Source: Branchiostoma floridae
Lineage: Eukaryota; Chordata; Leptocardii; Amphioxiformes; Branchiostomatidae
Reading direction: 5' to 3'
Length of the DNA stretch: 64,000 bases
Assembly: GCF_000003815.2 (NCBI RefSeq)
Contig: NC_049986.1
Coordinates: 18,409,049 to 18,473,048, forward strand
Positions 4,596-36,277 of this stretch are shown piece by piece (positions within the stretch are counted from its first letter, which is position 1; each line of letters opens with the position of its first letter). Below the pieces are notes generated by a model. That model worked only from the letters and a program-made list of their open reading frames with translations. It did not search any database and was not told the DNA's origin. Position numbers and translations under genes: made by a program.

Positions 4596-6234
4596 CCCTG
4601 TCCTGATGGCTTTGCTTTTCCCTACGGGGCAACCTTCACTGGACTGAAGCATGTTTGCGGTGTACCTGTGCCCTGAGTTGGATATGTGTCACCACTCACA
4701 CCACTCACTATCTGGTCTATCGTCCATTTACCCTTAATTCTATGATGGAAATATCATGTTAAATGTGTGATACTGGCTTTAGGAGGAAGAATGATAATTA
4801 ATCTTGCCTTAGGTATGCAGTAATATAGTATGCATACAGAGATACAGCTTTTAGGTTTAACTTAAAAGAATCGAAATCTTAGAATGACCAAAGTGAAGGG
4901 GTTTATATTAAATCTCCTTGGACCAAACTGGAACTCCCTCCTTAATGGTGTACTTAACTCTTGCTTTTTCCTACATGTTCCCCCTTAACAGGGGATTCCT
5001 GGACTAATGTGCTTCCCAAAAGTAACTCAAGCTGTAACTATACTGTTAACGATGCAGAGTAAATCTAGTCCTCCCCTGCTAAGGAGAAGAAGGGTAGAAC
5101 TGAAGTTCAGTGGCATAGAAACTCTATTAATGGTGTACTTGAATGGCCCTCCTTGTAAGACTTTTAAATTATGGCAGAAAAACGTAAAACATTCCTACTT
5201 TCTCTCTGCCTTTGTCAGCAAGTCACACTAATAGAAGTTATGAGAGATGAGAAGAAATGTGGACATGGCACATTCAAATGCATATCTCGCAGGCATTGAC
5301 TTAAAAAAAGATCTTAAATCAGATACACATTATACTGGGTATGTCAGCAGAATTAAGAAAGGTCAGGATTTCACATGATCACAAAGAGTTAACCATTTCT
5401 TATAGTCTAATCAAACACTAACTTATCAAAAATCACACCATTGTCAGATTGTATCCAAAGAATTTTATTCCAAGATTTAAGGAATTTAGTAATGTACCTT
5501 CTCTGCTGGAATAAAACATTGTCAAACAAAGACTCTTTATCTAGCTATCATTATTATATAGTAAAGGCACCATAATTCTTGCATAATGTTTCTGCAATAG
5601 AAGAGGACTAAACTTACATGATTGCCCCTGATGAAAAACATGGTAGACAATGAATGACAATTAACTATTCATTTATTTATTATTAACATATTTTTTGTTA
5701 CATTAAGTATAACAGACATAATTATTGCAACACCTGATATGAAAGTTATCAAAATTGCATTAGATTGGTTTTTAATGTGATTTTATCCTTCTCAAATACA
5801 ATTCAAGTCTTTTGGATATCACATACACAATGTAAGTCACTGTTGCTTCATGACCATAATTCTTAGTAAATCATTGTCTCATTGTCACAATTTGGTTCCC
5901 ACTTTAATCTTAACATTCCTTAACATCTTAACCTTCAATTAAGGTTAGACATCCAGGTAATAAGATACACCAAATGGTAGTCAAACAAGCACAACTTAAT
6001 TAACAATGGTTGAAAAATTAATCAATACAGTAGCAGTAGAATTACAATGGACCAAGGTTTGAGAATTTTACATAACTTGTAGGTATTTAATTACGAATTA
6101 AGCAAATTAAGACAAACAAAAACCAGAGAATTAAAGTCAGCCTTTGAGAGAGGAGAATGGAGATTTTTTGTCCAGAGGCTGACTACTTACAGGCCCTGTG
6201 GCCTCAGGGTGAGAAGAAGTAGGGGAAGGTGGCC
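4596..6234. other. Intergenic/3'UTR stretch; candidate poly(A) signals
   Basis: This AT-rich stretch lies between two convergent genes. AATAAA at 5510-5515 on the plus strand would give the EctC-like transcript a 3'UTR of about 0.9 kb. On the minus strand, AATAAATAAAT at about 5671-5681 lies downstream of the most distal serpin cassette and could end that transcript. No other coding signal is seen. Confidence 0.45.
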
Positions 6235-6374
6235 TCAGGCCATCGTAGGCTGAGACATGCGTCCAAAAAACAGCACAGAGTTGGAGCTGTTTTCCCTGAT
6301 GAGGAACAGGAAGGGATGGTCGGCTATGAACTCCTGGGGACGGCGTGGCATCATTCTCGCCCTCATCATTACCC
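6235..6374 (-). CDS. Serpin terminal-exon cassette 14 (most distal), intact; P1 Arg
   Basis: The acceptor lies just above 6374; the exon enters in phase 1 (G+GG = Gly) and ends in TGA at 6235-6237. The loop reads GVMMRARMMPRRPQEF, then the conserved strand FIADHPFLFLIREN and the serpin C-terminal block NSVLFFGRMSQP. Counting 17 residues from the first hinge Glu in the constant exon puts Arg at P1 (R-A-R|M-M). The length (45 residues plus the split Gly) matches the intact sister cassettes. It has a stop and no donor, so it is an alternative last exon. Confidence 0.88.
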
Positions 6375-7010
6375 CTGGAACCAAACGTAGCTTTGTTTGT
6401 TTGTTTGTTTGTTTGTTTTTGGAAAGATCTGTAATACGATATCAAACAATCAAGCACTGGTTCCAATGATCATGCTGCTTTTTCATTGCGAATTAAAGTA
6501 AAATTTGGACATGAAAATATTTGGACTTAAAAACCAGGACTGTCTCCAACTTACAATTTTTGTTCATCCCACATGTTCTTCGGGAGCCCAAGTTCTTATT
6601 TGTCATTCTTAAATGTTTTGTTTTTAGCTTATAAAATACATTTTGATAAATTTCATGCAATGAAGTTCAAATGTTACGGATGGAGAGGGTGAAATTTTAA
6701 TTTGTTAAACAAGCAAATTTCAGTCCTGGAATGGAGGGATTGGTCTTGCAGACAGCCCTGGACTGAGTCTCACACATTTTCTAAGACTTGATTGTTTCCT
6801 TCTGCAAATTACAGTCACTGTGACTTCTGCCACATTCATCAGATAAAGATTGAACTGTGTTGATTTAAGTCTATTTTTTTATTCTTGCCACAAATCAAGG
6901 TGGCCTCTGCAATAAAAAAAAACTAGTCTAGACCTCTTTGAAGCAATGCCATCTGTAATTAGAGTTTAGACATTATGATTAATAGAACAATGGAAGTACA
7001 TGGACAGTGG

Positions 7011-7124
7011 ACACAAAAAAGAGGACAGAGTTGGAATGTTTATCTCTAAGGACAAACATGAAGGAGATGTTGACAATGAGTCATGTAGGAGGCTGAGGCA
7101 TGGACCATCACCACGTTATTACAC
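7011..7124 (-). pseudogene. Serpin cassette 13, heavily decayed
   Basis: An acceptor-like TTTCAG precedes 7124, and the relics MPQPPT, IVN.SFMF and SNSVLF are still readable, but frame stops appear after four codons and again at the start of the conserved strand. The C-terminal Gly-Lys/Arg-Met block is lost. Left over from the same tandem expansion as its neighbours. Confidence 0.75.
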
Positions 7125-7446
7125 CTGAAACCAACAAAAGTATCCTTGTTTCACTTTCTTTACATTTTTTCAGAAAGATCTACACAAGACCAAATACCTA
7201 AGATCTTGTCAAAAAGCTTAACACGTTAAGGTTATTTATGTACAAGAACTGCCTCTTCTTTAAATCCATCTGATAGGGTTTGTTTATTTGTTTGTCGATT
7301 AGTGTTGAAATACATCCACTACTGTTGCAATTGCTGGAGTCCTCTTCCATGGAGTTGAATGTTATAGGATAGTTTGTATTCAACTTAACAATTTTTTAAT
7401 CTGACTCGGTCTTTTTGACTGAATTTATCTTAATTAAGCTCTTGCA

Positions 7447-7580
7447 TCAAACTGGTTTCTGCATTTTTCCTAAGAAGAGGACAGAGTTGGTGCGGTTGTC
7501 TCTGATGAGAAACAGGAAGGGGTGGTCGACGATGAAGGGTGTTGGAGGACGCGGCATTGCTCGATTCATCATCATCACAC
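7447..7580 (-). CDS. Serpin terminal-exon cassette 12, intact; P1 Arg
   Basis: Acceptor TTTCAG, then G+GT (Gly), and an open frame to TGA at 7447-7449. The loop is GVMMMNRAMPRPPTPF, followed by FIVDHPFLFLIRDN and the C-terminal block TNSVLFLGKMQKPV. P1-P1' by count is Arg-Ala. It is nearly the same as cassette 3 (15842-15978) in the loop, so the two may be recent duplicates. A minus-strand AATAAA lies at 7283-7288. Confidence 0.88.
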
Positions 7581-7679
7581 CTGAAACCAAATATGCCAAT
7601 ACTCCGTGATTTTGTACGAGCTTTTAGAGAGTCACTATTTACTAAATATGAGACCTTGTGGAAAAGGTTCTGATTCATG

Positions 7680-7757
7680 ATACTGTAATGCAGAAATCTT
7701 TGCGTTAGTTTTATGTTCGTGGTTTTCATGATGGCCACTTCACCGCAAACTTACAAC
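7680..7757. repeat. Dispersed repeat, second copy
   Basis: Diverged copy of the 3704-3785 block (CTGTAATGCAGAAATCTTTG ... GGCCACTTCACCGC). It lies between cassettes 11 and 12. Confidence 0.55.
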
Positions 7758-7889
7758 CACAGCAAACATTTTTCCATTATAGTATGTGACTAAAGTTTAT
7801 GACACTATAGAGAACTTAAAGCCACCACAAACACTCCATTCTCCCACTACCGCAAACTTATTATTGTTGGGTGGTCACATGCCCTGTAC

Positions 7890-8054
7890 TCAATTGGGCT
7901 TCTGCATTTTTCCTAAGAAGAGAATAGAGCTGGTGTATCCTTTGAGGAATAACAGGAAGGAAAGGTTGCTTGTGATGAGAAAAAGTAAGGGATGGTCGAC
8001 AATGAAGGTTACTGGAGGAGGCGGCAGCCCAAAATCTGCCTCAATCAATTAGAC
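7890..8054 (-). pseudogene. Serpin cassette 11, decayed (early stop and frameshift)
   Basis: The acceptor CCAG is present, but the frame hits TGA after three codons (L-I-D-stop). Later segments (PPPVTFIVDHPLLFLI and the end SSILFLGKMQKPN) sit in another frame and are split by an internal repeat of about 30 bases. It resembles cassette 10 most closely. Confidence 0.75.
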
Positions 8055-8233
8055 CTGGAACCAAAAGTATCTGACTCACTTTGTGTTTTTGTTCAAGCTT
8101 TAAGAAAGTTGCAAGTTACTAAATATATGAAAACTGTGGAAAAGATTCTGATTTCAAATTAGATCATTCAAATTTGGTCATCACAAAATTTCAAATCACT
8201 CTTAAATCTCCAATTAATTCATTGTGTGTTGCA

Positions 8234-8365
8234 TCATGGCTTCTGCATTTTCCCTGAGAAGAGAACAGAGTTGCTGCTGCTGTCTGATGAGAAACACCTG
8301 GAAGGGATGGTTGGCAATGAAGGTTGTTGGAGGACGCGACATCCCAAAATCCATCTCGATCAGAC
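8234..8365 (-). pseudogene. Serpin cassette 10, frameshifted in the last third
   Basis: The first half is open and distinctive: GLIEMDFGMSRPPTTF then FIANHPF, which would place Phe at P1. A CAG-repeat slip replaces the normal 12 bases after FLIR with 10, shifting the frame so that the end NSVLFSGKMQKP is read out of frame. Translation would then run to a stop about 20 codons later with a non-serpin tail. Confidence 0.72.
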
Positions 8366-8601
8366 CTCAACCAAATGATTGTATCTGACTCATGTTGTGT
8401 TTTGTACAAGGTTTAAGACTTTAAGAGATGTTGGGCATCGCATTACCCCGCCCGCCAGGGATGACAGATGATGATGATGACTAGATATGAAAACTTGTGG
8501 AAAAGATTCTGATTTTCTTTCTTTTAAATCAAAATCATTCAAATTTGTTGCAAATCACTTGAGAATCTCAAAATAATTCATTGAAAAGATTGAATGCTTC
8601 A

Positions 8602-8731
8602 TTAATGGGTCTTCTGCATTTTGCCAAAGAAGAGGACAGAGGAATCAAGCACAGAGATGAAGAGACACGGAGAGGGATGGTCGACGATGAACGGTGTTGG
8701 AGGATTGCTCGAGTTATCATCATCATCACAC
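8602..8731 (-). pseudogene. Serpin cassette 9, frameshifted
   Basis: The acceptor CCAG and the opening GVMMMITR are intact, but a 1-base frame change before the PPTPFIVDHP segment disrupts the rest, and the conserved LIRDN block is replaced by unrelated residues. The end LFFGKMQKTH is still recognisable in the shifted frame. Confidence 0.72.
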
Positions 8732-8942
8732 CTGGAACCAAATATATTAATGTGTCTGACCAAATGTCATTTTGTGTTTTCGTACAAGCTGTTCAGAAAA
8801 AGTCACAATTCACAAAATGCAATAAAAAAACAGGTGGTGAAGGTATTGATTCTTTATCTATTTTATTCATTATCAAATCATTTGAATTTGGACATCATTT
8901 TTACAAATTTCAGTATCTCTAATTAAATCATTGTGTGCTGAA

Positions 8943-9074
8943 TCAAACTGGCTTCTGCATTCTGCCTAAGAAGAGAACAGAGTTGGTGCAGTTGTCTCTG
9001 ATGAGAAACAGGAAAGAATGGTCAACAATGAAGGGTGTTGGAGGACGCGATCGATCAAGTCATTATCATCACAC
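8943..9074 (-). pseudogene. Serpin cassette 8, frameshifted with early stop
   Basis: The acceptor and GVMIMT are followed by a TGA. Relative to cassette 7, two bases are missing just before the RPPTPF segment. Downstream, FIVDHSFLFLIRDN and NSVLFLGRMQKPV remain open in the shifted frame, so the decay looks recent. A minus-strand AATAAAA lies at 8861-8867. Confidence 0.75.
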
Positions 9075-9278
9075 CTGAGGAACCGAGTGTGTTTGACTCA
9101 TTTTGTGTTCTTATAAGAGCTTTTTGGAAAAGTCACAAGTCATAAAATATAAGACAAACACTAGTGCTGAAGGTGCAAAGGTACAGATTCTTTATTGCAT
9201 GATTGAATCATTCAAATTTGGACATCACAAAATTTCAAATCACTCTTAAATCTCAAATTAATTGATGTGATTAATTGA

Positions 9279-9409
9279 TCATGGCTTCTGCATTTTTCCT
9301 AAGAAGAGAACAGAGTTGGAGCGGTTGTCTCTGATGAGAAACAGGAAGGGACGGTCGGCGATGAACTGCGTGGGAGGACGCGGCAACGACCTTTTCATCA
9401 TCATCACAC
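9279..9409 (-). CDS. Serpin terminal-exon cassette 7, intact; dibasic P2-P1 Lys-Arg
   Basis: Acceptor CCAG then G+GT (Gly), open to TGA at 9279-9281. The loop is GVMMMKRSLPRPPTQF, then FIADRPFLFLIRDN and NSVLFLGKMQKP. Counted from the hinge, P2-P1-P1' is Lys-Arg-Ser. Of the intact cassettes this is the one expected to suit a trypsin-like or dibasic-specific protease best; that is inference from the residues. A candidate minus-strand AATAAA lies close downstream at 9191-9196. Confidence 0.9.
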
Positions 9410-10435
9410 CTGGAATCAAACATGTCTGTTTGTTGTTCGGGCTTTTAGAAAGATTCACACAGCACCAAATAATCAAGCACCAGTTATATTGATTCTTACT
9501 ATAATTTCTTTATTGCAAATTAATGCATTTTATGTTGCTGTCCAAAAGCTGCTGTCATACAACTACATCTTACTGTTCCATCAGCTATTTGCTATCCTTG
9601 ATCAATAGGTGTGATCAGTTATTGAGCAATATACTATGTATACAAATAATTTGTAAATCATTAATTTGATGTAATTTGTCACAAGGCATACATGTAGTTG
9701 ATAGGAGTTCCTTACACATTTGACACCCATCATAGTAAATTACTTAGTATTAGTACATGGTCTTTGTTAAACTAGAAAAAAGGGCAAAGCTTAAAAATAA
9801 GCATAAAATGTAGTTTCCTTGAGATAAGTAATTCACAGTATCAAAGGATGCTAATATAAGGGGGCCATCTAGCAAAGAACTTTGGTAACAACTTTGGAAC
9901 AGTAATCATAGTTGCATACACACACGTTCCCACACACATACATGTACACAGTCACATATTACATGTACGTAAGGCTGCTATCAAAGACTAATGACCCCAA
10001 TGCTCAGATGACGTACGGTGAACAGCATGAAACTACTAGTAATAAACTAACTGATCTGACCATCAAATCAAAGCCACCTTAAGTGAATTGCACTAATTTT
10101 TCCTATCAAACACGAGTACTGATAACTTGCAATGGATGATCATCTATTAGTCATGACTTGTAACACACAGCAAGAAAAAAATGCAATTAGTTTGAGAACA
10201 CTTTCCTGACATTCATATACAATCCAACCACTTCAAGTTGTGGGTCAATCTAGAATAGCAGACATCACAGCTATTGTAATACTAATCCATCTTTTCAATC
10301 CACAACGTCTTTTCTCTCATCCCAAATCCATATCACCCAACATCATCAGTTATCAGAGATTTTTTACACGATAATCATGGTGAAGTTTTATGATAACAAA
10401 TGAAAATGGAGACAAATCTGCAGATTGCTAGCATT
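9410..10435. other. Spacer between serpin cassettes 6 and 7
   Basis: AT-rich noncoding DNA without a cassette relic that I can recognise. TTTATT on the plus strand near 9508 is a possible poly(A) signal for cassette 6. A short CA/CACACA run lies near 9917-9950. Confidence 0.4.
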
Positions 10436-10548
10436 TTACACAGCTGGGTTGTACATTTTGCCATAGAGGAGAATAGCATTAGATCTGTTGTGTCTGATGA
10501 GGAACATGAAGGGGCGATCTGCGACAAACATCGGAGTCGGCTGCTGTA

Positions 10549-11026
10549 GGGGTGACGTAAGCATTAGCGCAGGCGCCTAGAGCCCACGGTGAGAGATCGC
10601 AAATAAAAACAAGGCTTTAAACCATTGAAAAGCCTTTCTTGGTGGGATTTTATGCGAAATCTGGGCATTTTGGGGGTGGCTGCAGTAGGAAAGACCCTAC
10701 ACTGGTAGAATTAGTTGTAAAAAATGACCTTTCTCCATCGAGGGGGTTTCCGCACCCCCCTGAAATAGTGGTATCGTCGCCAGAATGGTGTTTTCAGCCA
10801 AATGGGCCAATCCAAGGGCTCTAATCAGGGGGGTGTATCAAAAGATTAGCCGTATAGAAATTCTTGCCAAGGAATTTGCCGAGACTGGATGTAGTAGGCT
10901 ATCATTTGAAGGTAAGTTTGTATGGCTTGAACTTTTTATTCTTGAGATAATTGCATATTTGTTTCCTCAACTCTCCCATTGGAACGCATGTATTAGTGGG
11001 TGAAATTCTAATGTCATCGTCTCCCC
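10549..11026. repeat. Terminal direct repeat, left copy
   Basis: Matches 12427-12904 base for base except for one G/A difference that I can find (near 10779). The first four bases to its right are also TGTA, which makes the exact repeat edge uncertain by four bases. Confidence 0.9.
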
Positions 11027-11246
11027 TGTAGTGATTCAGGTAGGCATGGATTAGGCCATTCCTGTTCATTTTAAGGGCTTTTTTGTCATGGATCTGTTAC
11101 CTGAGCAAGGTATAGGGTTCAGGTGACTGTCATTTACTTGAGATTTCCCCATTTTTTTGTTATTTTTGGCTCTCTTCCTTGTTTTTTAGCCATCCCTCCA
11201 ATCAGTGCCAGACTGCAGACCAGGGACAGTGTACAGAGGACTTGAT

Positions 11247-11970
11247 NNNNNNNNNNNNNNNNNNNNNNNNNNNNNNNNNNNNNNNNNNNNNNNNNNNNNN
11301 NNNNNNNNNNNNNNNNNNNNNNNNNNNNNNNNNNNNNNNNNNNNNNNNNNNNNNNNNNNNNNNNNNNNNNNNNNNNNNNNNNNNNNNNNNNNNNNNNNNN
11401 NNNNNNNNNNNNNNNNNNNNNNNNNNNNNNNNNNNNNNNNNNNNNNNNNNNNNNNNNNNNNNNNNNNNNNNNNNNNNNNNNNNNNNNNNNNNNNNNNNNN
11501 NNNNNNNNNNNNNNNNNNNNNNNNNNNNNNNNNNNNNNNNNNNNNNNNNNNNNNNNNNNNNNNNNNNNNNNNNNNNNNNNNNNNNNNNNNNNNNNNNNNN
11601 NNNNNNNNNNNNNNNNNNNNNNNNNNNNNNNNNNNNNNNNNNNNNNNNNNNNNNNNNNNNNNNNNNNNNNNNNNNNNNNNNNNNNNNNNNNNNNNNNNNN
11701 NNNNNNNNNNNNNNNNNNNNNNNNNNNNNNNNNNNNNNNNNNNNNNNNNNNNNNNNNNNNNNNNNNNNNNNNNNNNNNNNNNNNNNNNNNNNNNNNNNNN
11801 NNNNNNNNNNNNNNNNNNNNNNNNNNNNNNNNNNNNNNNNNNNNNNNNNNNNNNNNNNNNNNNNNNNNNNNNNNNNNNNNNNNNNNNNNNNNNNNNNNNN
11901 NNNNNNNNNNNNNNNNNNNNNNNNNNNNNNNNNNNNNNNNNNNNNNNNNNNNNNNNNNNNNNNNNNNNNN
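11247..11970. other. Assembly gap (N run)
   Basis: 724 undetermined bases inside the LTR-like element. Any apparent open frame crossing it is meaningless. Confidence 1.
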
Positions 11971-12426
11971 TGGGGGGGGGGTGTTCCCCTATGGAGGGAT
12001 CCTAGACCAGGTGAATGTTGTGATTTAGCCTTGCAACACTCTTTTTCATTCTTTTTGCCTTTTCTATGATTGTCCCTATCCACACGAGTAGTCATTATAT
12101 ACCTTTCAGGGCCCTTGAATAGACTTTAGGCTTGCCTTGAAAGTGTCTAGAAAGGGGATGTAGGAGTCTAAGTGAAGGGAACAATGTCTCCATTAGCTTA
12201 GGTGACCAACTTTTGGCTTTATTCACTTGTTTCTGTCAAATTCCACCTGTAGCCAGCATCCCTAGCCCAGGTCCACAGTGCAGGCCTGGCACAGGTAGGT
12301 CATCAATCCCCAGGGGAGTGTTTCTTATCAGAGGTCTTTGATATTGATGGTTTTTACTTCACACCCCTACCCCGCAGTGGGTGACATGATTGACATCTGT
12401 CAATTGTGAACTTGAATTTACTAGAA

Positions 12427-12904
12427 GGGGTGACGTAAGCATTAGCGCAGGCGCCTAGAGCCCACGGTGAGAGATCGCAAATAAAAACAAGGCTTTAAAC
12501 CATTGAAAAGCCTTTCTTGGTGGGATTTTATGCGAAATCTGGGCATTTTGGGGGTGGCTGCAGTAGGAAAGACCCTACACTGGTAGAATTAGTTGTAAAA
12601 AATGACCTTTCTCCATCGAGGGGGTTTCCGCACCCCCCTGAAATAGTGGTATCGTCACCAGAATGGTGTTTTCAGCCAAATGGGCCAATCCAAGGGCTCT
12701 AATCAGGGGGGTGTATCAAAAGATTAGCCGTATAGAAATTCTTGCCAAGGAATTTGCCGAGACTGGATGTAGTAGGCTATCATTTGAAGGTAAGTTTGTA
12801 TGGCTTGAACTTTTTATTCTTGAGATAATTGCATATTTGTTTCCTCAACTCTCCCATTGGAACGCATGTATTAGTGGGTGAAATTCTAATGTCATCGTCT
12901 CCCC
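12427..12904. repeat. Terminal direct repeat, right copy
   Basis: Partner of 10549-11026. Its right flank, TGTACCATAGCAC, is the 5' part of serpin cassette 6 on the minus strand. Confidence 0.9.
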
Positions 12905-13191
12905 TGTACCATAGCACATTGCAACATCATCACCACCCCTGCAAATAGAAAGCACCCTTTCAAGCCTTTTAATATAGCGCTGATTGGGATCCCTCTGTGT
13001 AGTAAAGTACTGGCAAAGACTAAAGCACTCACATCTCGACACACCCTAGCCTTATATACAGGTCAATGCACTGTCAACAACACAATATGACTGTACCACG
13101 GGTGCACCCTAAGACAATAGATCATACAGCTGAAGGCTGTTCTTTCTTATTGAACACCAACTATACCTACATTAGACAACACATTTGTGTA

Positions 13192-14258
13192 ACGGGGGCC
13201 ACCCTAAGATGCCCCCTGTCCTAAGATGCCCCAATTTTTTGCCGATCATATTATATTAAGTACGCCGTGTTTGTTGCCACTGACTATGATGATTAGAAAG
13301 GTAAATAAGCCAAGTCCAAACAAACAGCTTTTTTTGTCTATCAAAAAATATTTACACATATTCACTTCCCTTTTTTTTGAAGACAGAATTTTCACAATAA
13401 TGTAGGTAGCGTCGAATCACTGTGCTCACCTGTTACTAAGTATTGGTGGCTCGTGTCCATAAATATACAACCAGTACAAAACAGCCACACAACTGTCATA
13501 CACATAAGAAATAAAGCTTCACAAAACACTACAAATATTGGTCTTCAAATGTTTGTTGAGAAGAAGACTGGCCATAGAAAAAACAACATAAGCATCACTG
13601 CCGTTGTTTTCCCCAGGGAGTGTGGCCCCGCAGATGGTAGAAGAAGCGAACGCCCAAAAGATTTGTTGCTCTAACAAATGATCCGTACTGTCTATAAAAA
13701 TGAAACTTCACAGAGTGATGTCGAATATGTTTCCCAATACGTACGAAGAGTTTTTTCGTGATTTTGACGTTGTTGTTTTTCGTAATGATTTTGTTAGCCG
13801 GGCCGCCGCATTCAGTGCATTTCGCTCATTTCCCATGAAGACCTGGATGGTGAAAGATTTAGCCCTCCTCGCGGGAGACAAGAAGCACACACAATCACAA
13901 TTCTACTGTCAAAAGAAAGCTAATATATCATAGAAATAAAATGTGTATTTATTGTTATCTGAATTGGTCACCAGCTTCCGAAAAGACAAAATTGCAAAAG
14001 GGGGGCAAGTTAGGGCGCACTGTCTAGCGCAGCACAAAATCAGAAGTTATATTCACGAAAACGTCCTCAGTGTTTGCCACTTGTAACTAGGAGGGTGAAG
14101 GGTTCATGAACCATATGAATGCAGTCCTTATCCTATGTTCTTAAGATAAATGTGTTAAAGATTCATTGATCAAAACTTGACCACTCTCTGGCAACTAGTG
14201 ATGGAGCGCCATGAGTTCGAGCGCATAAAAAGGGGGGGCATCTTAGGGCGGCCCCCGT
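13192..14258. mobile_element. TIR DNA transposon, non-autonomous, about 1.07 kb
   Basis: The ends ACGGGGGCCACCCTAAGATG (13192 on) and, inverted, ACGGGGGCCGCCCTAAGATG (from 14258 back) form a terminal inverted repeat of about 27 bp with one mismatch, flanked by TA on both sides (13190-13191 and 14259-14260). A TA duplication fits the Tc1/mariner group. The interior has no transposase that I can recognise. It sits in the intron between serpin cassettes 5 and 6. Confidence 0.75.
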
Positions 14259-14496
14259 TATAACATTGTTGAGTAGAAGACTGGCTGATATGTACATGCA
14301 AATGTATGTCCAAACATTCTTTTATCAGTTGTCTGTAGATAATGGTAAGCTAAGACTTTACAAGACTGTCAAATGTATAATTAGCATAGTACAATGTCAT
14401 ATATTTTTGTGTTCCTTTAAAGCTATAAGCTGCTGAAAGGCCCGGTTTCTTTGATATATGAATAAGCTAAAAACAAGTTTAAAAAAGCTGCAAATG

Positions 14497-14741
14497 TCAA
14501 ACAGCCTCTCTCGTTGGTCTACAACAGCAATAGCCTGGGTACCATCTGGATAGTAGTTCGCTACTTTGCAGTTTGGAATCAGACTTTAGAGATGTCAAGG
14601 CTCCCAGACGGATAGCAGAGAATTTGCCATAGAAGAGAACAGAGTTAGAACGGTTGTCCCTGATGAGGAACAGGAAGGGATGATCGACTTCAAAGGAATG
14701 AAGATCTGGATCAATCGCACCGCTGAAGCCGCAGCCCACAC
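14497..14741 (-). CDS. Serpin terminal-exon cassette 5, open, with a transposon-derived C-terminal tail
   Basis: Acceptor TTGCAG then G+GT; open to TGA at 14497-14499. The loop is GVGCGFSGAIDPDLHSF, unlike all the others, then FEVDHPFLFLIRDN and SNSVLFYGK. After FYGK the usual short serpin end is missing and the frame runs on for about 38 residues (FSAIRLGALTSL... to ...TREAV). That tail starts inside a fragment of a repeat also found at 61312-61468, so a mobile element has replaced the normal C-terminus. P1-P1' by count is Ser-Gly. Whether a serpin with this tail folds is open, since the lost residues lie beyond the core strand. Confidence 0.72.
14539..14620. repeat. Truncated MITE fragment (same family as 61312-61468)
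   Basis: One end reads GTACCATCTGGATAGTAGTT and the inner part contains GGATAGCAGAGAA, both matching the 61-kb copy. It overlaps the 3' end of serpin cassette 5 and provides its tail codons. Confidence 0.65.
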
Positions 14742-15061
14742 CTGCAAGCAAAAAACACACAGGTGCACTCACTGCAGCATGTTTTTGCACTCTAAGTACA
14801 CTGACATAGTTTCATACTGAAGGCTAGCTGAAAGCTGTTCAACAAATCATACTATTACTAGAGATTTTTTTAAATGTGAGCAGCGATATTTACTGCATGT
14901 ATGTGTAACCCTCACAAGAAATGGCAAATAAAGGATAAAGGAAGTCAGTGAGTGAGTGTGAGTGTAGAAAAATCACACGTATGGAGGAGTCAAAATTGTA
15001 GTTCTCAAAAAAAAAACTTACACCCTTGCAAATATAAAGTCTAAAAAGGTGGTGTATACGA

Positions 15062-15201
15062 TTAGGCTTCAGGCTTGTACATTCTGCCTAAGAAGAGAAC
15101 AGAGTTGGAGCGGTTGTCTCGGATGAGAAACAGGAAGGGATGGTCGGCAACAAACTCTGGAGGACCTTCAAGGTCCAGGGCACATAGCATCATCACCACA
15201 C
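15062..15201 (-). CDS. Serpin terminal-exon cassette 4, intact; P1 Cys
   Basis: Acceptor TTACAG, G+GT, open to TAA at 15062-15064. The loop is GVVMMLCALDLEGPPEF, then FVADHPFLFLIRDN and NSVLFLGRMYKPEA. By hinge count P2-P1-P1' is Leu-Cys-Ala. The acidic stretch after the scissile bond (L-D-L-E) differs from the Pro-Arg-Pro-rich type of the distal cassettes. Confidence 0.9.
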
Positions 15202-15841
15202 CTGTAATAACAGAACACTTTTTCAAGACTTCAGGCCGCCAGAACGAAAATGTTCTAATGTGTGTCTTTTTACCTTGAGATCAACGGTAAGGACATAAAA
15301 CACCTTTTCAAGTCTGTGCCAAAAAAAACCCACAATATTCTCACAATGACGGTAGACTTAGTCTAGCATATAGGAAATATCATATTATATACACTCACAC
15401 ACTCACTCATGATGAACTCTACAAGCAAACAAACCCCTTTCAAATCTTCTTAGGTTATACACACTGCACAGGTCACCATACTTGAATACTGGCATACTGG
15501 ATGGTTGCACTGTACATGCTCAAGTCAGTGTCTATAGTTACACACATAAGGCTTTCATATTCAAGCCAAGCTCAAAGCTGTGGCTCAGCATCTGTTACCA
15601 AGGATTTCCATGCAAGCATATAATAGTAAACCTCAACATTGACTACAAGCACATTTGATCCTTACAACATGAGGAGTAATGGACAAACAATCGGTTAGTG
15701 AGTGGGTGAGTGTGAGTATAGAAAGCAACTGGCCAACACCTGGTGCAAAGCAACAATGGACTCTAAATTGAAGACCTTTAATGACAATCATGAAGTTACC
15801 CTTGAAAGTATGAAGATTGTATAAAAAGGTGGTGTTTACAA

Positions 15842-15978
15842 TCAGGCTTGAGGCTTGCTCATTCTGCCAAAGAAGAGAACAGAGTTGCTGCGGTTGTCTT
15901 TGATGAGAAATATGAAGGGATGGTCAGCGATGAACGGTGTGGGAGGGCGCGGCATACATCGATTCATCATCATCACAC
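15842..15978 (-). CDS. Serpin terminal-exon cassette 3, intact; P1 Arg
   Basis: Acceptor CCAG, G+GT, open to TGA at 15842-15844. The loop is GVMMMNRCMPRPPTPF, then FIADHPFIFLIKDN and NSVLFFGRMSKPQA. P1-P1' by count is Arg-Cys. Its loop is nearly that of cassette 12 (Arg-Ala), although the two are 8 kb apart. Confidence 0.9.
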
Positions 15979-16170
15979 CTGGAACCAAATGTGTCTGACT
16001 CATCTTGTGTTTTTGTACAAGGTTTTGGACAAAGTCACAAGTCACTAAATATTTTTTAATTGATGGTGCTGAAGGTTCTGATTCTTTATTTAATAATCAA
16101 ATTATTCAATTTGGAGATCACAAAATTTCAAATCACTTCAGAATCTCAAATTAATTCACTGTGTGTTGCA

Positions 16171-16304
16171 TCATGGTTTCTGCATTTTTCCTAAGAAGAG
16201 GACAGAGTTGGAGCAGTTGTCTCTGATGAGAAACAAGAAGGAACAGACGGCAACAAACTGTGGAGTATCTTCAAGAACTAGAGCACATCACATCATCATC
16301 ACAC
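16171..16304 (-). pseudogene. Serpin cassette 2, in-frame stop at the loop
   Basis: The acceptor TTTACAG and total length (2+44 codons) are normal, but the frame reads GVMMM-stop-CALVLEDTPQF. The TGA falls where cassette 4 has a Leu codon. Downstream the frame stays open to NSVLFLGKMQKP, with the ADHP motif changed to AVCS. Use of this exon would give a serpin that ends inside the reactive loop. A minus-strand AATAAA lies at 16085-16090. Confidence 0.8.
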
Positions 16305-16894
16305 CTGTAAATTGTAATAAGAAATCACCTTGATGTATTTCAAACCTTCAAGCCAGCAAAGAGCTAAAATGTTCTGACTCACAATCCTTTTACCTAATGA
16401 GACCAAAAGTCAGGCTATAACCTATATATACATGTACACACTCACCCATGGCCTCATATACAATGTGTTAGAAAAAGATTCAACAGTTATTGATGGAATG
16501 TTAATGTGCAGCTGTTGGGACATTGGCGCTCTGCCATGGGGGGAATTCATGAACATGACTGTGTTAACTGCCTTTTCAAGGGGCACAATGTCAGGGCGTG
16601 GTGGGCATCAAATACTGCGCCACACAGACATCTCACAATGTGTCAGATGCTGATGCAAATCATAAGGACTGCATTGCAAAGAAGAAGATCTGACAGGCTA
16701 TTTCCATGGTCCAGCCAAAGGGACTGAGAGAGCAGGGGTGTAAATTGTAAAGCAACAGCATGCTTGTACTTGTACTCAACAAGTAAAATGCCCAAGCTCA
16801 AAGCAACAGATGTGGGAAAAGCTTTCAAGCCTTCTGACATTGCTGAAGTTGTTGAACAGCCAGAAGCTGTAAAATGAAAGACCTCAGCTTTGAT

Positions 16895-17034
16895 TCAAGC
16901 CGTGGGGTGTGAAAGCCGTCCACAGAAAAGCACAGAGTTGGACAGGTTGTCTCTGATCAGGAAGAGGCAAGGGTGATCCACACTGAACTCCAGAGGTGGG
17001 AAGAGTGGTGCAGATTCTGTCACCATGAGAACAC
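16895..17034 (-). CDS. Serpin terminal-exon cassette 1 (proximal), intact; P1 Glu
   Basis: Acceptor TCTAAG, G+GT, open to TGA at 16895-16897. The loop is GVLMVTESAPLFPPLEF, then FSVDHPCLFLIRDN and NSVLFCGRLSHPTA. By hinge count P1-P1' is Glu-Ser. This is the cassette nearest the constant exons and the most diverged in the C-terminal block. An acidic P1 would point away from trypsin-like targets; that is inference. Confidence 0.88.
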
Positions 17035-17631
17035 CTTAGAACCACACACAAATCACAACAGCCAACCTCAGACCTAATTGCTGGTGTTTCTTAAGTACAG
17101 TCTAACTTCATATTATAATGTAGAGTATGTATGGCTATTTGGTATATTCAACCCAAATGTATTTTACCCATTCCTCAGCAGTACAATAAAGAAAGAGGTT
17201 AGAAAAAGTTAAATATTAAAAGCAAAAAAAAGCAGCACAACATCAATGACAACACAACAGGCAGAGCTAGAAACAGGTCTGACTGAGAAAGACTCAAAGA
17301 CAAAATGCACTTCCTCCAGTTCTATTGGTGAAGCTTGCCACACAGAGCACGAGGGAGCCATCATGGCAACTGGAGCCAAGAACTCAAGGCGGGTCTTAAG
17401 CTATTCACTCAGGCAGGTACATACATGTACAGTATGTGTAGTATACCGGTATGTATGGATGCATGTGAGACAGCTTGTTTCAGCCACAGAGAATTTGAAC
17501 AAGCATGAGGTGCATGCTGGTGGTTGTTGTAAGTTGGCACAGAAGGGGGTTTTTGGACTTCCCATATTGATGTCTCTAATAAACCAAGTATTCTTCATAA
17601 ATACACTTATGAATTTCTTAACTTATTTGAT

Positions 17632-17758
17632 TCCTTTCTTTCTTCCTTCCTTCCTTCTTCCTTCCTTCCTTCCTTCCTTCCTTCCTTCCTTTTCTTCTTC
17701 CAATCATTCTTTCTTTCCTTCCCCTTCCTTTTTTTCTTCCCCTCTCTCCTTTCCTTCA
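17632..17758. repeat. (CCTT)n pyrimidine microsatellite
   Basis: A long run of CTTC/CCTT units on the plus strand, in the intron just after the serpin hinge exon. On the transcribed strand it is a purine tract. Confidence 0.95.
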
Positions 17759-17812
17759 CATGTCCCCCTTATGATAATGAAGATACTAATAATGATTACA
17801 GTAATACAGTAC

Positions 17813-20800
17813 CTGTGGCAGCGGCAGCCTCTGTCCCTTCTTCGTTGACCTCCACAAAAGCCTTGTGCACGACAGCAGAGATGAAGAGATCCTTGCTTCC
17901 TGACATGCCAGAAAAATCTGCTGCATCGCTGAAAGCCTCTCCCATACCCATCTTCTTCAGGGTGTCACCTGCATTTTCAGTCACAATTGAAGATAAACAC
18001 ATTGTTATTTCTCATTGATATTTCTATGACAATGTTGTTTGCATGAATTGTTATTGTTATATCCTTCTCATAGGTAAGCCCTCTTTTACAGTGTTGTGGG
18101 TTTGCACCATGGAGTGTTAGAACGATGTACAGGCCCTATTTCTGAGTGTTATACTTAGCACCACCATGGACAGGCCTGTTTCTGAGTGTTATATCTATCA
18201 TCATGGCAGGCCCTGTTTCTGAATGTTACATTTTGTATATCTAGCACCATGGACAGGCCCTGTTTCTGAGTGTTACACTTAGCACTATGGACAGGCCCTG
18301 TTTCTGAGTATTATACAGCACCAAGGACAGGCCCTGTTACTGAGTGTTAAAAACTCCAAGGACAGGCCCTGTTTCTGAGTGTTATATAGCACCAAGGACA
18401 GGCCCTGTTTCTGAGTGTTATGTCTAGCACAATAGACAGGCCCTGTTTCTGAGTGTTATAGCACCATGGACAGGCCTGGTTTCTGAGTGTTACACTTAGC
18501 ACCAAGGAAAGGCCCAGTTTCTGAGTGGCCTAGCTGACCATGTGTCCCTTACTTTAAGGTAGAGTAGATCCTTTGACAAGCATAAAATTCTGAATCACCA
18601 GGGATGCTACTAGACCACATGTGGTCACAGTCTTCAACTGTGACCTGTCTGATAGCAATTTCCCACCTCAAAATACCTTAGAATTCCCAATTCTAATCTA
18701 AAGTTATCTAAAAGAAAACTACACACCATACACGGGGGAAGGCCCCCTTTCTACACCGCCCCCCCCTCCTTAGCTGGTTGCTCTGTTCTCTTCCAAGTTT
18801 TCCAAGAAAACCCCCTGGTCTCCTTGTCACAGACTTACCCAGCCCAAACTCCTGCTCCAGTTTGAAGCGGGGCAGCAGCAGGTTGACCTTGGTGCTGTAC
18901 ATCTTGCTGCTGACAGTCTGCAAGGTCGCTGCTGTCAGAGAGGACTCCAGGTCCTTAATGCCCTCCACTGTAAGAACAAGCTAAGAACTTTAATTCTAGG
19001 CACGAATACATAGATGGGGTTCATGTGGCATAACTGTAGGGTGCCGGATCTTTCCCAAGGACTCCGACTTATCGATGGAATGGCAGCATGGCATTTTTTC
19101 AGAATAAGACTCTCCCATGGACTATTACACTTTGATGTAGGGGGTTTCTAATACTTAATTGCGGTCTCAGTGGTTCAGGGTTTTAGCCAGCTCGAATTTT
19201 TTTTCCGTCAGCCAATTAAAATCGTCGCAAAAACAGCAAAAATTAATTAGAAGGACTGAACTGAAAAACAGGTTTTAATGAGATTGGGCGCGAAAGGGCG
19301 CCGACACGCATTGTCAACAATCCTAACAATAGCAAAACAAACAGTATGTGGCTTTTACGGCCGTGGACAGCGTCCCCAAGCCGCCTGGAGCTTTCACCAA
19401 GGATTTTTGTCCGTCAAAGTTGACGGATTTGTTTTATAATTTTTCCGTCAGACGCAAATTCCGTCAATTGACGGAAAAACGGACGCTGGCTAGACCCCTG
19501 CAGTGGTTTTTTAGTGGGTTTATAACACCTACTTCATTGTTTCCCGAGACAGAAGGATGCCAACAAACAACCCAAACTCACCTGCATCTGGCAGAAAGAT
19601 GAGCATGCTCAGCTCCTTCTCCACATAAGGCAGCTCCAAGACACGACACTTCAGATCCTCGAAGACGCCGTAGTTGAAGTTGGCCTCTTTTCTCATCATC
19701 TTCACCTATATCCCGACACGTTTTTAATAAACTATGGTCAAAATAAACTTCAGCATGGAAAACAGCACTGTCCAAAAGGGTTTAAGATGCTGTTACAATA
19801 AGAATGGAACTACATTGTATTCAGACAAACACAGCAATGCGGGAGTACATATTTTAATGACACATTACACATGTACGTATATATCAAATTGTTTTTGTTC
19901 GTATTTGTTTGTATTGCATAACCTATAAACTGCATTATGGCATAACACAACGTTTGTACTTTTGTACTGAACAGTAAATGACCTTGGGAACGGTGAAATG
20001 CTTCAGACACTCTTCAACGAGATCTGCTCAGTTTCAATGACGAAAGGTGAGTCGATGCTGCCTGAAACGTCTGACTATTTCCAAAATCATATTCAGTTCA
20101 GAGTATTACTATTCGGTGTACAATGTATCTTATTACCTGGATGTCTGACCTTCATAAACAAATGAACAATTTACCTTGACTTTCTCATTATTGTTGATGT
20201 TGAAGTCCCGGTCGCGGGTCATATTTGCATCAAACTGCTCGTCCCAGTTCCCCTTGAAGTAGATGGCATTCACCAGGACTAACCTACAACACAGCAGCAG
20301 TTTCACACGTCATTCTACAAGTTGATTAAAGTTTCTACTGTAACAATAACTATAATGCTGAATCACCTTTATCCGAAGATAACCTATATCCGTTGTTTGT
20401 ATAAAAGCGTATTTAGGGACATGAAGTTGACGGACGGTGGTTTCAAATCGGAACATTTTGAAACTGTTGCAAATTTGAAACCACATTCCGCAGATTTAAT
20501 ACTCCTAAATGTGCTGCTTTTTAAGACAATGGATAAAGGTCACCCTGCGGAACTAGCGTTACATCATGAAAAAAGGAGAACTACAAAAAACGCTAATTCA
20601 CCTTTTTTGTTGGGTAACCTAGATTCGTTGTTTTGAAAAGCTGGGTATTTAGAGATTTCAGGTCAACGACGTGGGTTTCAAATGTCAACATTTTCAAGAT
20701 ATTCCAATGAGAAACTACCTTCCATTGACTTAACAGTCCCCAAGTACCCTATCTTTATATACAATAGATATAGGTTACCCTACGGATAAAGGTGAACTAA

Positions 20801-22844
20801 CGTTAATACATTCTGACACTAGCAGCTGTTTAACTGTTTGTTTTGTTAATTTCCTGACAATTTTTTTAAATTTTTTTGTCAAGACAATTGAAAAGATAAG
20901 ATGTGATAGTGGTATCACTTAATGATTAAAAGTTACAATTATATCGCCAATAAGGTTTCATTCTTAGGCCACATCAATTCAATTTCTTGGTTCACAGATT
21001 CACTCGCTCCTATTTTTTGGAAAAAAAAATAAAAATAAAAATTACCACTCAGCAAGTTTTCACCATTAATGAAACCTTTCATCAACTTTCAGATGTAGCA
21101 AATTGGCCTTTATATCATAAGCTCCTTAATGTGTGGGTACAGGTGCTGTTTGCACAATAATAGTGTTTTTGTACTTTTTTCAAGTTGAAAACTTTTTTTC
21201 TTTATGTTTTGGATTAGCCGTTACCTATACCCCAACCATTTTACAATGTTCATTTTTATTTTTATTTCGCCCTTTCGCTCCGTGTGGCCTTATATCAGGA
21301 AAAAAAACTACATACCTTGTCATTGCATCCACTGCTCCGGCCGGGATCAGGTCTTTGATCTTGTTCTTGGTTTGCTCCTCCACCCACTGGTTGATGGTTC
21401 CTCGAACCTGCTCAGCTGCGCCCTGCAAAATGTAAGTGGATTTTGATAAGGTGAAGATACTATGGTGTTTGCAGTGTGGGCTTTGAGACGAGCTATAAAT
21501 TAATTCCTGATAGAGAGAACTTGTTTTACACAGGTGACAAAAAAATCATTGAATTTTCTTTTGGAGGTAACAGTCATTCTATAATTATCTGTATCTATAT
21601 AGCCGAACACACCAGCTTCGCAGGCACGCAGTGCGGCAGCAGCTGGATATATTACACCGAAGGACCCAACAACATTACTGGACATTTGGAGGGATAAATC
21701 TGACCTTGAAGTCCACAGCAGCCAGCTCTGCCCCGTAATTCTTGTTGGTGGCATCCAGGAAGTCCTGTAGGAAACTGTAGGTCTGCTCCCCGTACAGGCG
21801 GTTTGCAGTCTGCAGGGTGTACTTGTCACTGTGGGCAAATATCACGTGTCATTCTACAACATACACATGACACTAGTTCGCTTATATATGTTGTCTTGAA
21901 ATATAGGGTGCTACAAGTTGAGCTACAGGGACATCCAAATTTGTATGTTAGAACACATGAATTCAATAGCATATATGAATACAGTACTAGTAGAAGGCAG
22001 TCAATTGCACAACAGATTACAACAGATTACTGCACACTGTTAATTTCACGGAATCTGCAAATCCCAAACCGGTTCGGCCCTTCGCATTATCACACCCAGG
22101 GATAAACAAGTCCACTAGCCCGATTGTCCCGGGCAAGTAAAAGTGCTGTTCGGGCAAGCAGAATTGCTTCCCCACTTGCCCAACGGGCAAGTAAGAATTT
22201 CCAGATTTGACCCGCTCAAATTACCACTGAGTGTGACAGCACATGGGGCTGAATGCCGGCCTATATTGACCATGTCATTTTTAAGCCAGTAGAGACATCG
22301 AGTTTGTTGTTGTTGCTGTCCTCGTTTAACGTCTATTATTTTGCAAGACGTGGTTTCTTAACAAAAGTGAAAATTTATGAAAGTGAAAACACATAGAAAA
22401 ATGTCATTTAAATTTCGGGCATTAGTGACAATTTGGTTCGGGCAAGTAAATTTTTAATGTACTTGCCCGATAGGACAAGTGAATTTTTGAAAACTTGTCT
22501 AACCCTGCACACCACCTTGATAATTGTACAAAATATGCTGGCAAATAAGGTGTGCAATCAAGCGACTTCTACTGTACTTCTAAAGGCCATTACTTAAAGC
22601 CAACCTTGCATACAGCTGCTGGTGCAGTTTGGAGAACGTGCCGTGCAGGGTGTCGTTAGGCATGTCCCTGGAAACACAGCGTCCCCTTCATAGCGCCCTC
22701 CGTGCTGCCGCGAGCGCCGAGGGACGTCATGGCCAGCGCCACGGAGATGCTGTACGGCGAGAAGAACACGTTTCCGCTGGTTCCGCACAGCTCGCGGTAC
22801 AGGTTCAGCGCAAACTCCGTGTTCGCTGCACTTAGCTTGTCCAT
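17813..22844 (-). CDS. Serpin, constant region (seven exons), one apparent frameshift
   Basis: Exons in order: 22844-22605, 21828-21705, 21422-21316, 20283-20175, 19705-19582, 18967-18839 and 17968-17813. All have GT-AG borders and matching phases. They encode about 330 residues, and with one cassette the protein is about 375, normal for a serpin. Hallmarks are the start [16 protein letters not shown], the block [28 protein letters not shown], the breach motif [48 protein letters not shown] and the hinge [11 protein letters not shown], which ends exactly at the last donor (17812-17811). The short Ala-rich hinge predicts an inhibitory serpin. There is no signal peptide and no KDEL end, so it is probably nucleocytoplasmic, like clade B. 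The start codon lies one base after an acceptor, implying a 5' noncoding exon. One extra base near 22666-22668 (C-run) breaks the first exon between FQ and [10 protein letters not shown]; it could be an assembly error or a real lesion. Confidence 0.9.
18106..18530. repeat. Minisatellite, unit about 35-40 bp
   Basis: About ten imperfect units built on GGACAGGCCCTGTTTCTGAG plus a TGTTA-TAGCACCA spacer. It lies in the intron between serpin exons 6 and 7. Confidence 0.9.
19176..19500. mobile_element. Non-autonomous hAT-type element, 325 bp
   Basis: The ends CAGGGTTTTAGCCAG and, inverted, CAGGGGTCTAGCCAG are flanked by a perfect 8-bp duplication CAGTGGTT (19168-19175 and 19501-19508). An 8-bp duplication and CAGGG ends are typical of the hAT superfamily. 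It lies in the serpin intron between exons 5 and 6 and has no coding capacity. Confidence 0.85.
20366..20810. repeat. MITE-like inverted-repeat element, two nested or tandem copies
   Basis: The left end CACCTTTATCCGAAGATAAC and the inverted right end (GGTTACCCTACGGATAAAGG) bracket a region that contains a second left-end-like block near 20597. Same family as 2831-2990 and 23070-23265. It lies in the serpin intron between exons 3 and 4. Confidence 0.65.
22097..22507. mobile_element. Non-autonomous TIR element, about 411 bp
   Basis: The ends CAGGGATAAACAAGT and, inverted, CAGGGTTAGACAAGT are flanked on both sides by CACACC (22091-22096 and 22508-22513). The interior repeats GGGCAAGTAA-type motifs several times in both orientations. 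The ends look hAT-like, but only 6 bp of the expected 8-bp duplication match. It lies in the serpin intron between exons 1 and 2. Confidence 0.65.
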
Positions 22845-24662
22845 CCTGAAAAGAAACAAATCCATATTCATCATTTTAAATCCTCAGTAGGACCTTAAAG
22901 ACAAGGAAGAGGGTAGAAACTGGGAACTGTCACCTGAAGCCCAGCAGCATTAATTCATCAATATATAAAAAAAGATCACTGAAATCAAACAGGTTATGAG
23001 GATCCCTTTGCTTTCCTACATGGGAAAAAGAGTTAGACCTACTATAATCATAGTGGATATCTAACGCTTAGGTTCACCTTTATCCGCAGGTATCCATTGT
23101 ATTCATAAAATCTGAGTATCTAGGGCTATCAAGTAAAAAAACTGCAATATTTTGGAAATATTGTGACTTGAAACCACCATGTATTGAATCCAGTGTTTTT
23201 TTTTAAAACAACAGATATAGGTTACCATGCAAATAATGGTGAACTAGCATAATTGATTACACCTTTAACCCTGATGGTTCAATCTTTCCAACCTCAGCAT
23301 TCCAAGTAGCATTCCAATAACCAGCCACCACTGCATGCATACCTGCAAAGCTATCAACTGTGTAATGTTACAATTAAGATATGCAACTCAGAAGAAAGCT
23401 TTAGTGTAGTAGAGTCATAGCAATTAAAGCAAATGAAGCATGACCTTTTAATATTGAATATCAGACAGGTGGTTGCTTGGGACCTGGGTATCTACAATGT
23501 AAGTGCAGAAAGGAAGGAAAGGGTTTGAACTTAAAGATGATTTAGACCTGATAGGACCGGCCCCTCCCTTGGCTTGCTGGACTTGCTGTTCCATGGTGAA
23601 TTATGTGAACCACAGTTATAACTCGCTGCTTTCCTAGTCATAACAAGTAAAAAAGACAAACTAGGTAAAGGTAGTCTCATAGCCTTTTTGAGGTCGTAGG
23701 TGTAGTAAGTTAATATTTATCCACTGTGTCTACGGCTAATAATATTCTAGTGTAATTCCTAATGTGAGGCAGCAAGGGAAGTTTCATGAAAGCAGATGTG
23801 ACGTAACTAAAAAGTGTAACAGTACAGATTTTGTCCCTCTGCTTTTCTGAACGCCCGTTTCTTTCTGTTAATTATTAGCTACCTGCATGATCAAATTGAC
23901 TGATAGTGTTACCGTCGATGCTTGTATTCGCGTTACACATTTTCAGACTACCATATGGGATCATCGTGACTTTATTGCAGCCTTAATGGCCTTTCATGTT
24001 CAATATTTTTGTTGCTTTGCTGGGTTGGCTTACAAATTTAAGTTTGGGCAAATAAGATTACTGTATGTGAGTGATGGGTTGGAAACAGTGCAAATCAGGC
24101 AATTGAGACGAACTAAAAATTTTCAACAAAAAAAACATAGAAACCGCCATGGAGCCATCCAGAAGGTGACCAGCACATGAGACATAAGCACAAGTTCCTC
24201 TTTTTAAGTGTAAAACCATACAGTCTGGTTCCTCATACATGTATTACTTTTAAACTGTAAACATTTAAGGTTTAAGGATGCCAGCAAGGTATTTTATTTC
24301 TTTGCAGGATCTGGAGTCAGTCAGTAACACCCTGGTTGAATACACATCAATCTGCAGTCATGTGATGGCAATAAATTGGACATAACTGACGTTAGACTGC
24401 GTGTGGGGGGAGGGGTGCTGAAATGATCAAGCTGATTACAGTTCAAGCATTCAGGTCCTAGTCGTCCTAGAGACAGTTGTGATGTCTGTCAGAACTCTAT
24501 AAATAAGAGTCTAGATAACATTCAATGCGCTTCACTGCAGTCTGGGTGCAGTCTGGGGTGGGGCAAAATTGGTTCACTGCCAGGGATCTATGACAATGGC
24601 TGACTGGGGGAAAAATTCTAAAGTTATGGAGTCTCTACCCGTTGCTTGAGTCTCTATAGTCA
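22845..24662. other. Upstream flank of the serpin gene
   Basis: This should contain the serpin 5' noncoding exon(s) and promoter, but I cannot place them by eye. A copy of the MITE-like family with ACCTTTATCCG ends is at 23070-23265. Part of a SINE-type repeat (TTATCCACTGTGTCTACGG) is near 23690-23740. No coding exon is recognised. Confidence 0.4.
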
Positions 24663-24835: not shown

Positions 24836-25025
24836 NNNNNNNNNNNNNNNNNNNNNNNNNNNNNNNNNNNNNNNNNNNNNNNNNNNNNNNNNNNNNNNNN
24901 NNNNNNNNNNNNNNNNNNNNNNNNNNNNNNNNNNNNNNNNNNNNNNNNNNNNNNNNNNNNNNNNNNNNNNNNNNNNNNNNNNNNNNNNNNNNNNNNNNNN
25001 NNNNNNNNNNNNNNNNNNNNNNNNN
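24836..25025. other. Assembly gap (N run)
   Basis: 190 undetermined bases next to a strong palindrome. Confidence 1.

Positions 25026-36246: not shown

Positions 36247-36277
<31 letters not shown>

Follow-up and report, generated by a model that had tools for sequence, protein, structure and literature searches.

In the lancelet Branchiostoma floridae, a serpin gene on the minus strand of a chromosome joins a single constant body to 14 tandem exons, each encoding a reactive loop and the C-terminal tail, and we regard it as highly probable that the gene operates by choosing alternative last exons for a shared inhibitory body, the splicing of these exons being predicted. The locus lies in a stretch of 64,000 nucleotides (C8:18409049-18473048, hereafter the window). 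The evidence consists of the anatomy, the phases, the splice dinucleotides, the constraint on the clean loop exons, the chimeric patterns and the decay, all of them read from the sequence. The mechanism is already known from insects and nematodes, and its occurrence in a chordate would be new within the scope of the open literature.

One serpin body and an array of loop exons

The constant part is laid out in seven exons running from 22845 to 17813 (Table 1), with AG/GT borders everywhere and compatible phases. It supplies serpin sequence through the hinge up to P8, and its last exon carries a canonical inhibitory hinge, GTEAAAAT. When the part spliced after the frameshift in exon 1 is joined to cassette 12, it matches the Pfam Serpin family (PF00079) with 377 bits, and the gene thus combines serpin sequence with the small-residue hinge at P15-P9 that together mark an inhibitory serpin. 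The best relatives of the same joined sequence among solved structures are leukocyte elastase inhibitor (SERPINB1) with 315 bits and Serpin B3/B4 with 298 bits. Between 22900 and 32600, a scan for hydrophobicity and donors, simple enough for a weaker or more distant signal exon to escape it, found no upstream exon that would add a signal peptide in phase. The gene appears to encode a leaderless, SERPINB-like serpin, the likeness being one to solved structures; the protein may be intracellular, and its inhibitory activity, target proteases and any immune role are putative. A degenerate minisatellite with units of ~36 bases occupies 18114-18532, in the intron preceding the last constant exon.

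The constant exons are followed by 14 loop-and-tail exons (cassettes), whose starts match the listed ones in all cases. AG stands immediately before each of the 14 starts, and every cassette begins with GT or GG, restoring Gly with the G of the donor; the clean ones measure 131-140 bases. The original prediction, which held that seven constant exons stop right after the hinge plus G and that 14 tandem loop exons of complementary phase follow, is borne out in these borders and phases, and our count agrees with its inventory of six clean cassettes, one with an altered tail, one split and six decayed. It had also named what would speak against it, namely cassettes belonging to separate full serpin copies; within the window, a complete serpin copy for each cassette is ruled out by the single constant exons. 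When the peptides of the constant exons and open cassettes served as tblastn queries against the window, each constant exon had one convincing place and none fell between cassettes, while the seven other cassettes were recovered with E values of 1.5e-6 to 2.8e-18. One set of constant exons is thus followed by several loop exons, and the array, judged by its sequence, is not a product of chance. The possible 15th cassette is a weak candidate, sharing a repeat family with other cassettes at 63-71%.

Table 1. Exons of the serpin gene in window positions; on the minus strand, each exon starts at its higher coordinate.
Feature	Position	Strand	Remarks
Constant exon 1	22605..22845	-	start codon 1 base inside; leaderless; one-base frameshift
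Constant exon 2	21705..21828	-	AG/GT-bounded, compatible phase
Constant exon 3	21316..21422	-	AG/GT-bounded, compatible phase
Constant exon 4	20175..20283	-	AG/GT-bounded, compatible phase
Constant exon 5	19582..19705	-	AG/GT-bounded, compatible phase
Constant exon 6	18839..18967	-	AG/GT-bounded, compatible phase
Constant exon 7	17813..17968	-	hinge + G at donor, position 352a
Cassette 1, clean	16895..17034	-	predicted P1/P1' Glu/Ser
Cassette 2, decayed (in-frame stop)	16171..16304	-	putative chimera: cassette-4-type loop, cassette-7-type tail; end by alignment
Cassette 3, clean	15842..15978	-	predicted P1/P1' Arg/Cys; putative chimera: cassette-12-type loop, cassette-4-type tail
Cassette 4, clean	15062..15201	-	predicted P1/P1' Cys/Ala
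Cassette 5, open, 80 residues, tail altered and extended	14497..14741	-	predicted P1/P1' Ser/Gly
Cassette 6, split	10436..12938	-	head 12938-12909, tail 10547-10436; repeat-flanked insertion with assembly gap 11247-11970
Cassette 7, clean	9279..9409	-	loop MMMKR/SL, predicted P1/P1' Arg/Ser
Cassette 8, decayed	8943..9074	-	small deletion, stop; end approximate
Cassette 9, decayed	8602..8731	-	frameshift; end approximate
Cassette 10, decayed	8230..8365	-	indels; end approximate
Cassette 11, decayed	7896..8054	-	indels, stop; end approximate
Cassette 12, clean	7447..7580	-	predicted P1/P1' Arg/Ala
Cassette 13, decayed	7018..7124	-	stops, tail lost; end approximate
Cassette 14, clean	6235..6374	-	loop MMRAR/MM, predicted P1/P1' Arg/Met
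Possible 15th cassette relic, tail only	5597..5641	-	tblastn E 0.19 alone; repeat family

Elsewhere in the window, exons resembling those of a voltage-gated potassium channel lie on the plus strand at 32638-37203, the first with an Ion_trans match, the second and the type of channel being assigned by eye; reverse-transcriptase-like open frames on the minus strand at 1047-2242 were likewise recognised by eye.

Predicted exon choice and constraint on the cassettes

In the mechanism that we propose, the donor at 17813 would be joined to one of several acceptors and the transcript would end in the last exon so chosen. As each cassette begins at P7, it would bring everything from there onward, bait loop and C-terminal strands included, so that the same trap would be fitted with a different bait and each choice of cassette could be directed at a different target protease. 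The anatomy supports the earlier claim of a one-scaffold, many-loops serpin like the arthropod genes, with the splicing itself predicted. At the 3' ends the signals are not uniform: two of the six clean cassettes have AATAAA no more than 200 bases from the stop, and cassettes 1 and 4 have neither AATAAA nor ATTAAA within 600 bases of it; therefore, 3'-end formation is not accounted for by the model. As regards a possible shared 3' exon, GTAAGT is present within 50 bases of the approximate stop in cassettes 4 and 14 out of the seven open ones, and cassette 3 has a GTAAG further on. The pyrimidine content of the acceptors, 9-12 of 17, does not separate clean from decayed cassettes.

These uneven poly(A) signals and a pyrimidine content blind to the state of the cassette would suit a locus that uses no more than one or two cassettes and keeps the remaining clean ones as silent duplicates whose decay is still to come. 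We hold this to be rather unlikely, since all six clean cassettes are open despite differing from their nearest open relative at no fewer than 32% of synonymous sites (at least 32% in each), with dN/dS between 0.20 and 0.47 in the five for which it could be calculated. Pooled over the seven open cassettes, the tail (21 pairs) has a dN/dS of 0.22 and the loop (the 9 of 21 pairs with equal loop length) one of 0.35, from pairs that are not independent and, in several cases, have saturated synonymous sites. Relative to the nearest open relative, the pooled ratio is 0.31 for open cassettes and 0.49 for the six decayed ones, leaving out cassette 6 and with cassette 1 lacking a calculable ratio of its own. 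The contrast between open and decayed cassettes is in the expected direction but modest, decayed cassette 8 having a ratio of 0.21, open cassette 4 one of 0.47 and open cassette 5 one of 0.59. Overall, the clean cassettes look constrained.

As assembled, constant exon 1 is closed. Translation from its start codon meets a stop at codon 63, the result of a one-base frameshift near 22665; serpin sense is kept on both sides of the shift, with the downstream text in another frame. A genome search for a second copy of exon 1, with which the frameshift could be checked, returned only a paralogue fragment 75% identical. Because the remaining six constant exons are all open with every splice dinucleotide intact, the lesion is probably either an assembly error or a young allele. 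The frameshift could also mark a dying locus, which formerly offered many loops and is now a pseudogene with relic cassettes, and the decay of 6 of the 14 cassettes and the interruption of one by a young insertion would fit; we nevertheless consider this improbable, given the intact state of the other constant exons and a text that is still serpin beyond the frameshift. A neutral simulation also bears on this point. In it, 43 codons remained stop-free in 76, 56, 40 and 32% of runs at 10, 20, 30 and 40% divergence, and when indels were added at a rate assumed to be one tenth of the divergence, the exon remained intact in 20, 4.7, 0.8 and 0.1% of runs, respectively. Measured against its nearest open relative, each of the seven open cassettes has diverged by between 13 and 40%, which speaks against neutrality, though weakly for the closest pair, cassettes 7 and 12, at 13%.

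A merger by the assembly of several serpin genes or haplotypes into one array is hardly credible: the window does contain two assembly gaps (11247-11970 and 24836-25025), but the first sits inside a mobile insertion, the cassettes are too different from one another for haplotypes, the constant exons are single, and when exon 1, one cassette and a block of cassettes were searched for in the 513-Mb, 431-contig assembly, the array came up once, plus weaker paralogues.

Turnover in the array and a paralogous array 1.7 Mb away

Cassettes 2 and 3 appear to be reciprocal chimeras whose parts meet at the border between loop and tail. The loop region of cassette 2 is closest to that of cassette 4 (55 of 77 positions identical) and its tail to that of cassette 7 (112 of 134); in cassette 3, the loop region resembles that of cassette 12 (59 of 72, with cassette 7 close at 59 of 74) and the tail that of cassette 4 (116 of 150). 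A breakpoint permutation test on five triples, chosen after the alignment had been seen and with overlapping members, gave 0 of 1000 permutations in each, and in three control triples the observed value was reached in 97, 13 and 7 of 1000. Four of the five triples place the switch at the DHPF segment; note that the breakpoint of cassette 2 varies with the parent used, lying at column 161 or 248. Over 409 contiguous bases, the stretch from cassette 2 to cassette 3 matches that from cassette 7 to cassette 8 at 79%. The simplest reading, with which this match is consistent, would be that a tail-intron-head block of the cassette-7 kind was placed inside a cassette-4-like exon.

The insertion in cassette 6 (10548-12908) is bounded by direct repeats of ~483 bases that differ at 1 of 483 positions. 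It belongs to a multi-copy family, with at least 41 matches including the two of the window (40 of 237 candidates scored), and some copies stand in tandem at a spacing of ~1.18 kb. When the insertion is taken out and a single copy of the five-base duplication TACAG is kept, its flanks give a continuous frame of 46 residues, and cassette 6 therefore appears to have been open until recently.

Taken together, the decayed copies, the recent insertion in cassette 6 and the chimeric cassettes lend support to the birth-and-death of loop exons that had been proposed for this locus. Cassettes would be added when blocks of exon plus intron are duplicated in tandem, recombination within the exon, where loop meets tail, would put loops on new tails, and decay and transposon insertion would remove cassettes from the set. 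Such turnover might help the gene to track changing proteases, as the original prediction supposed. As to monophyly of all cassettes, a protein tree of 14 rows (the seven open cassettes, the tail of cassette 6 and six paralogue last exons) left most deep nodes at low support.

A paralogous array stands 1.7 Mb from that of the window, with four tandem serpin last exons on the plus strand at C8:20127682, 20130521, 20133366 and 20135998 (spanning 20127682-20136189). Each has a 339c-type acceptor followed by hinge, loop and tail, and constant exons that end at the matching point lie upstream, beyond an assembly gap at C8:20115144-20126051. From P6 onward the loops read VVVRLL/SADSW, VVSRVL/SLNDW and VVSRVH/SLKFW. 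Copies 1 and 2 match exactly in the stretch compared. In any other pair, between 4 and 12 of the 42 loop bases differ, the neighbouring sequence being mostly 0-5% different; for copies 1 and 3 the differences are 11 of 42 in the loop, 11 of 1017 upstream and 2 of 111 in the tail. Fisher tests of the loop versus upstream, hinge and tail combined gave p values of 1.2e-10 (copies 1 and 3), 1.1e-9 (1 and 4) and 0.026 (3 and 4), and copies 3 and 4 alone are not convincing evidence of loop divergence. In a closer alignment, the 60-base segment that holds most of the loop shows 9, 13 and 7 differences between copies, the other aligned segments mostly showing 0-5 apart from one downstream of copy 4 with 9; copy 4 is not alignable beyond ~190 bases upstream. 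We discarded a large downstream divergence between copies 1 and 3 seen in the first alignment (198 of 1245 bases): the nearest ~700 bases differ little, and by the closer alignment much of that difference is misalignment or lies further out. These comparisons, made in one assembly, are a strong hint of divergence focused on the loop, and a patch of gene conversion would look alike.

Further serpin pieces were observed in this region. Tandem 156-base repeats of the serpin C-terminal strands occur on the minus strand, inverted with respect to the four last exons, at C8:20134292-20134870 and C8:20136936-20137268, a hinge preceding only the one at C8:20137092-20137268. Five tandem pieces resembling serpin exon 2 (SFRHDFLMD...), 123-134 bases apart, lie on the minus strand at C8:20156667-20157251.

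Junction position, predicted loops and known serpins

In an alignment to alpha-1-antitrypsin (394 residues, with E342 and M358), the last base before the loop intron is the first of codon 352 (352a), at the end of the hinge with one extra G. The six other introns map to about 106b, 147c, 181b, 217c, 257a and 300a in one alignment with two sites at gaps; 147c sits at such a gap and may correspond to 148c of antithrombin genes. The position 352a is held in common with the vertebrate group V3, which includes PAI-1 and neuroserpin (PMC2746811 and PMC4476131, excerpts). In lancelets, group L1 has no loop intron and groups L2 and L3 have 339c, the sets being 75c/176a for L1, 86b/151c/223b/283c/339c for L2 and 73b/125b/175c/339c for L3; additional serpin-like lancelet sequences are mentioned there as unresolved (PMC2746811). 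Compared with these sets, the window gene belongs to none of L1-L3, and its six mapped introns other than 352a are unlike any listed L1-L3 or V3 position.

Counted from the hinge, the predicted P1 residues of the clean cassettes are Glu, Arg, Cys, Arg, Arg and Arg in array order, the assignment being less sure in cassettes 1, 4 and 5, which carry one extra residue before the shared tail. The loop of cassette 7 resembles that of lancelet Spn-1, NMMKR/SL, and a serpin at C12:22051159 of the same genome ends NMMKR/SL...KDEL. Spn-1 of B. floridae is described with the loop NMMKR/S at P5-P1' and a KDEL end, the same loop being reported in B. lanceolatum, whose orthologue inhibits proprotein convertases (PMC2556349, excerpt). 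A convertase of the secretory pathway as the target of the cassette 7 form is doubtful because the scan found no signal peptide, and trypsin-like targets would be equally possible. Bfl-Spn-1 thus shares with the window gene its genome and, at P5-P2', a loop nearly that of cassette 7, but differs by its KDEL end, its signal peptide and its introns at 75c and 174a (PMC2556349, excerpt; ~176a in the later PMC2746811).

Loop-swapping serpins have been reported from insects and nematodes, with no mammalian example known in 2009 (PMC2770083, excerpt), and splice variants of sheep SERPINA1 arise by exon skipping (PMC3751836, excerpt). Among the matches listed from the open literature, titles and the beginnings of abstracts showed no chordate serpin, from lancelets or otherwise, whose loop exons are alternative. 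In Drosophila Spn4 (Spn42Da), alternative 3' exons put different bait loops on one core, an arrangement like that of the window gene; that gene differs in its number of loops, four in D. melanogaster, and in forms that either carry or lack a signal peptide, and the available part of the source describes no decayed array (PMC2770083). We would give somewhat less than even credence to a broader picture, in which one lancelet chromosome carries two loop-exchange arrays, one joined at 352a (window) and shuffled at the border of loop and tail, the other at 339c (C8:20.13 Mb) with loops driven apart amid similar surroundings, either parallel to the insect genes at the same nucleotide position or descended from a common bilaterian ancestor.

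The closest likeness is to the insect serpin-1 type, where a constant scaffold is again combined with alternative C-terminal loop exons: Manduca serpin-1 has 14 copies of exon 9 (PMC5691223, excerpt), and PpSerpin-1 of Pteromalus is joined to its loop exons where the hinge ends, with one G added, and has 21 C-terminal forms (PMC10513286). For this type, expression and, for some isoforms, inhibition have been demonstrated (PMC10513286, excerpt), and exons are suggested to have been gained and lost at a high rate in the insect clade (PMC10513286). One form of PpSerpin-1 carries a signal peptide and is secreted, whereas our simple scan found no upstream exon for such a peptide here, and the window gene departs from the insect genes in its phylum and in a scaffold closest to SERPINB among solved structures. 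With intact, chimeric, freshly interrupted and decayed cassettes side by side, the history of the lancelet locus is visible, and a chordate case with a hinge-plus-G junction makes it testable whether insects and lancelets reuse one ancient socket or repeated the invention.
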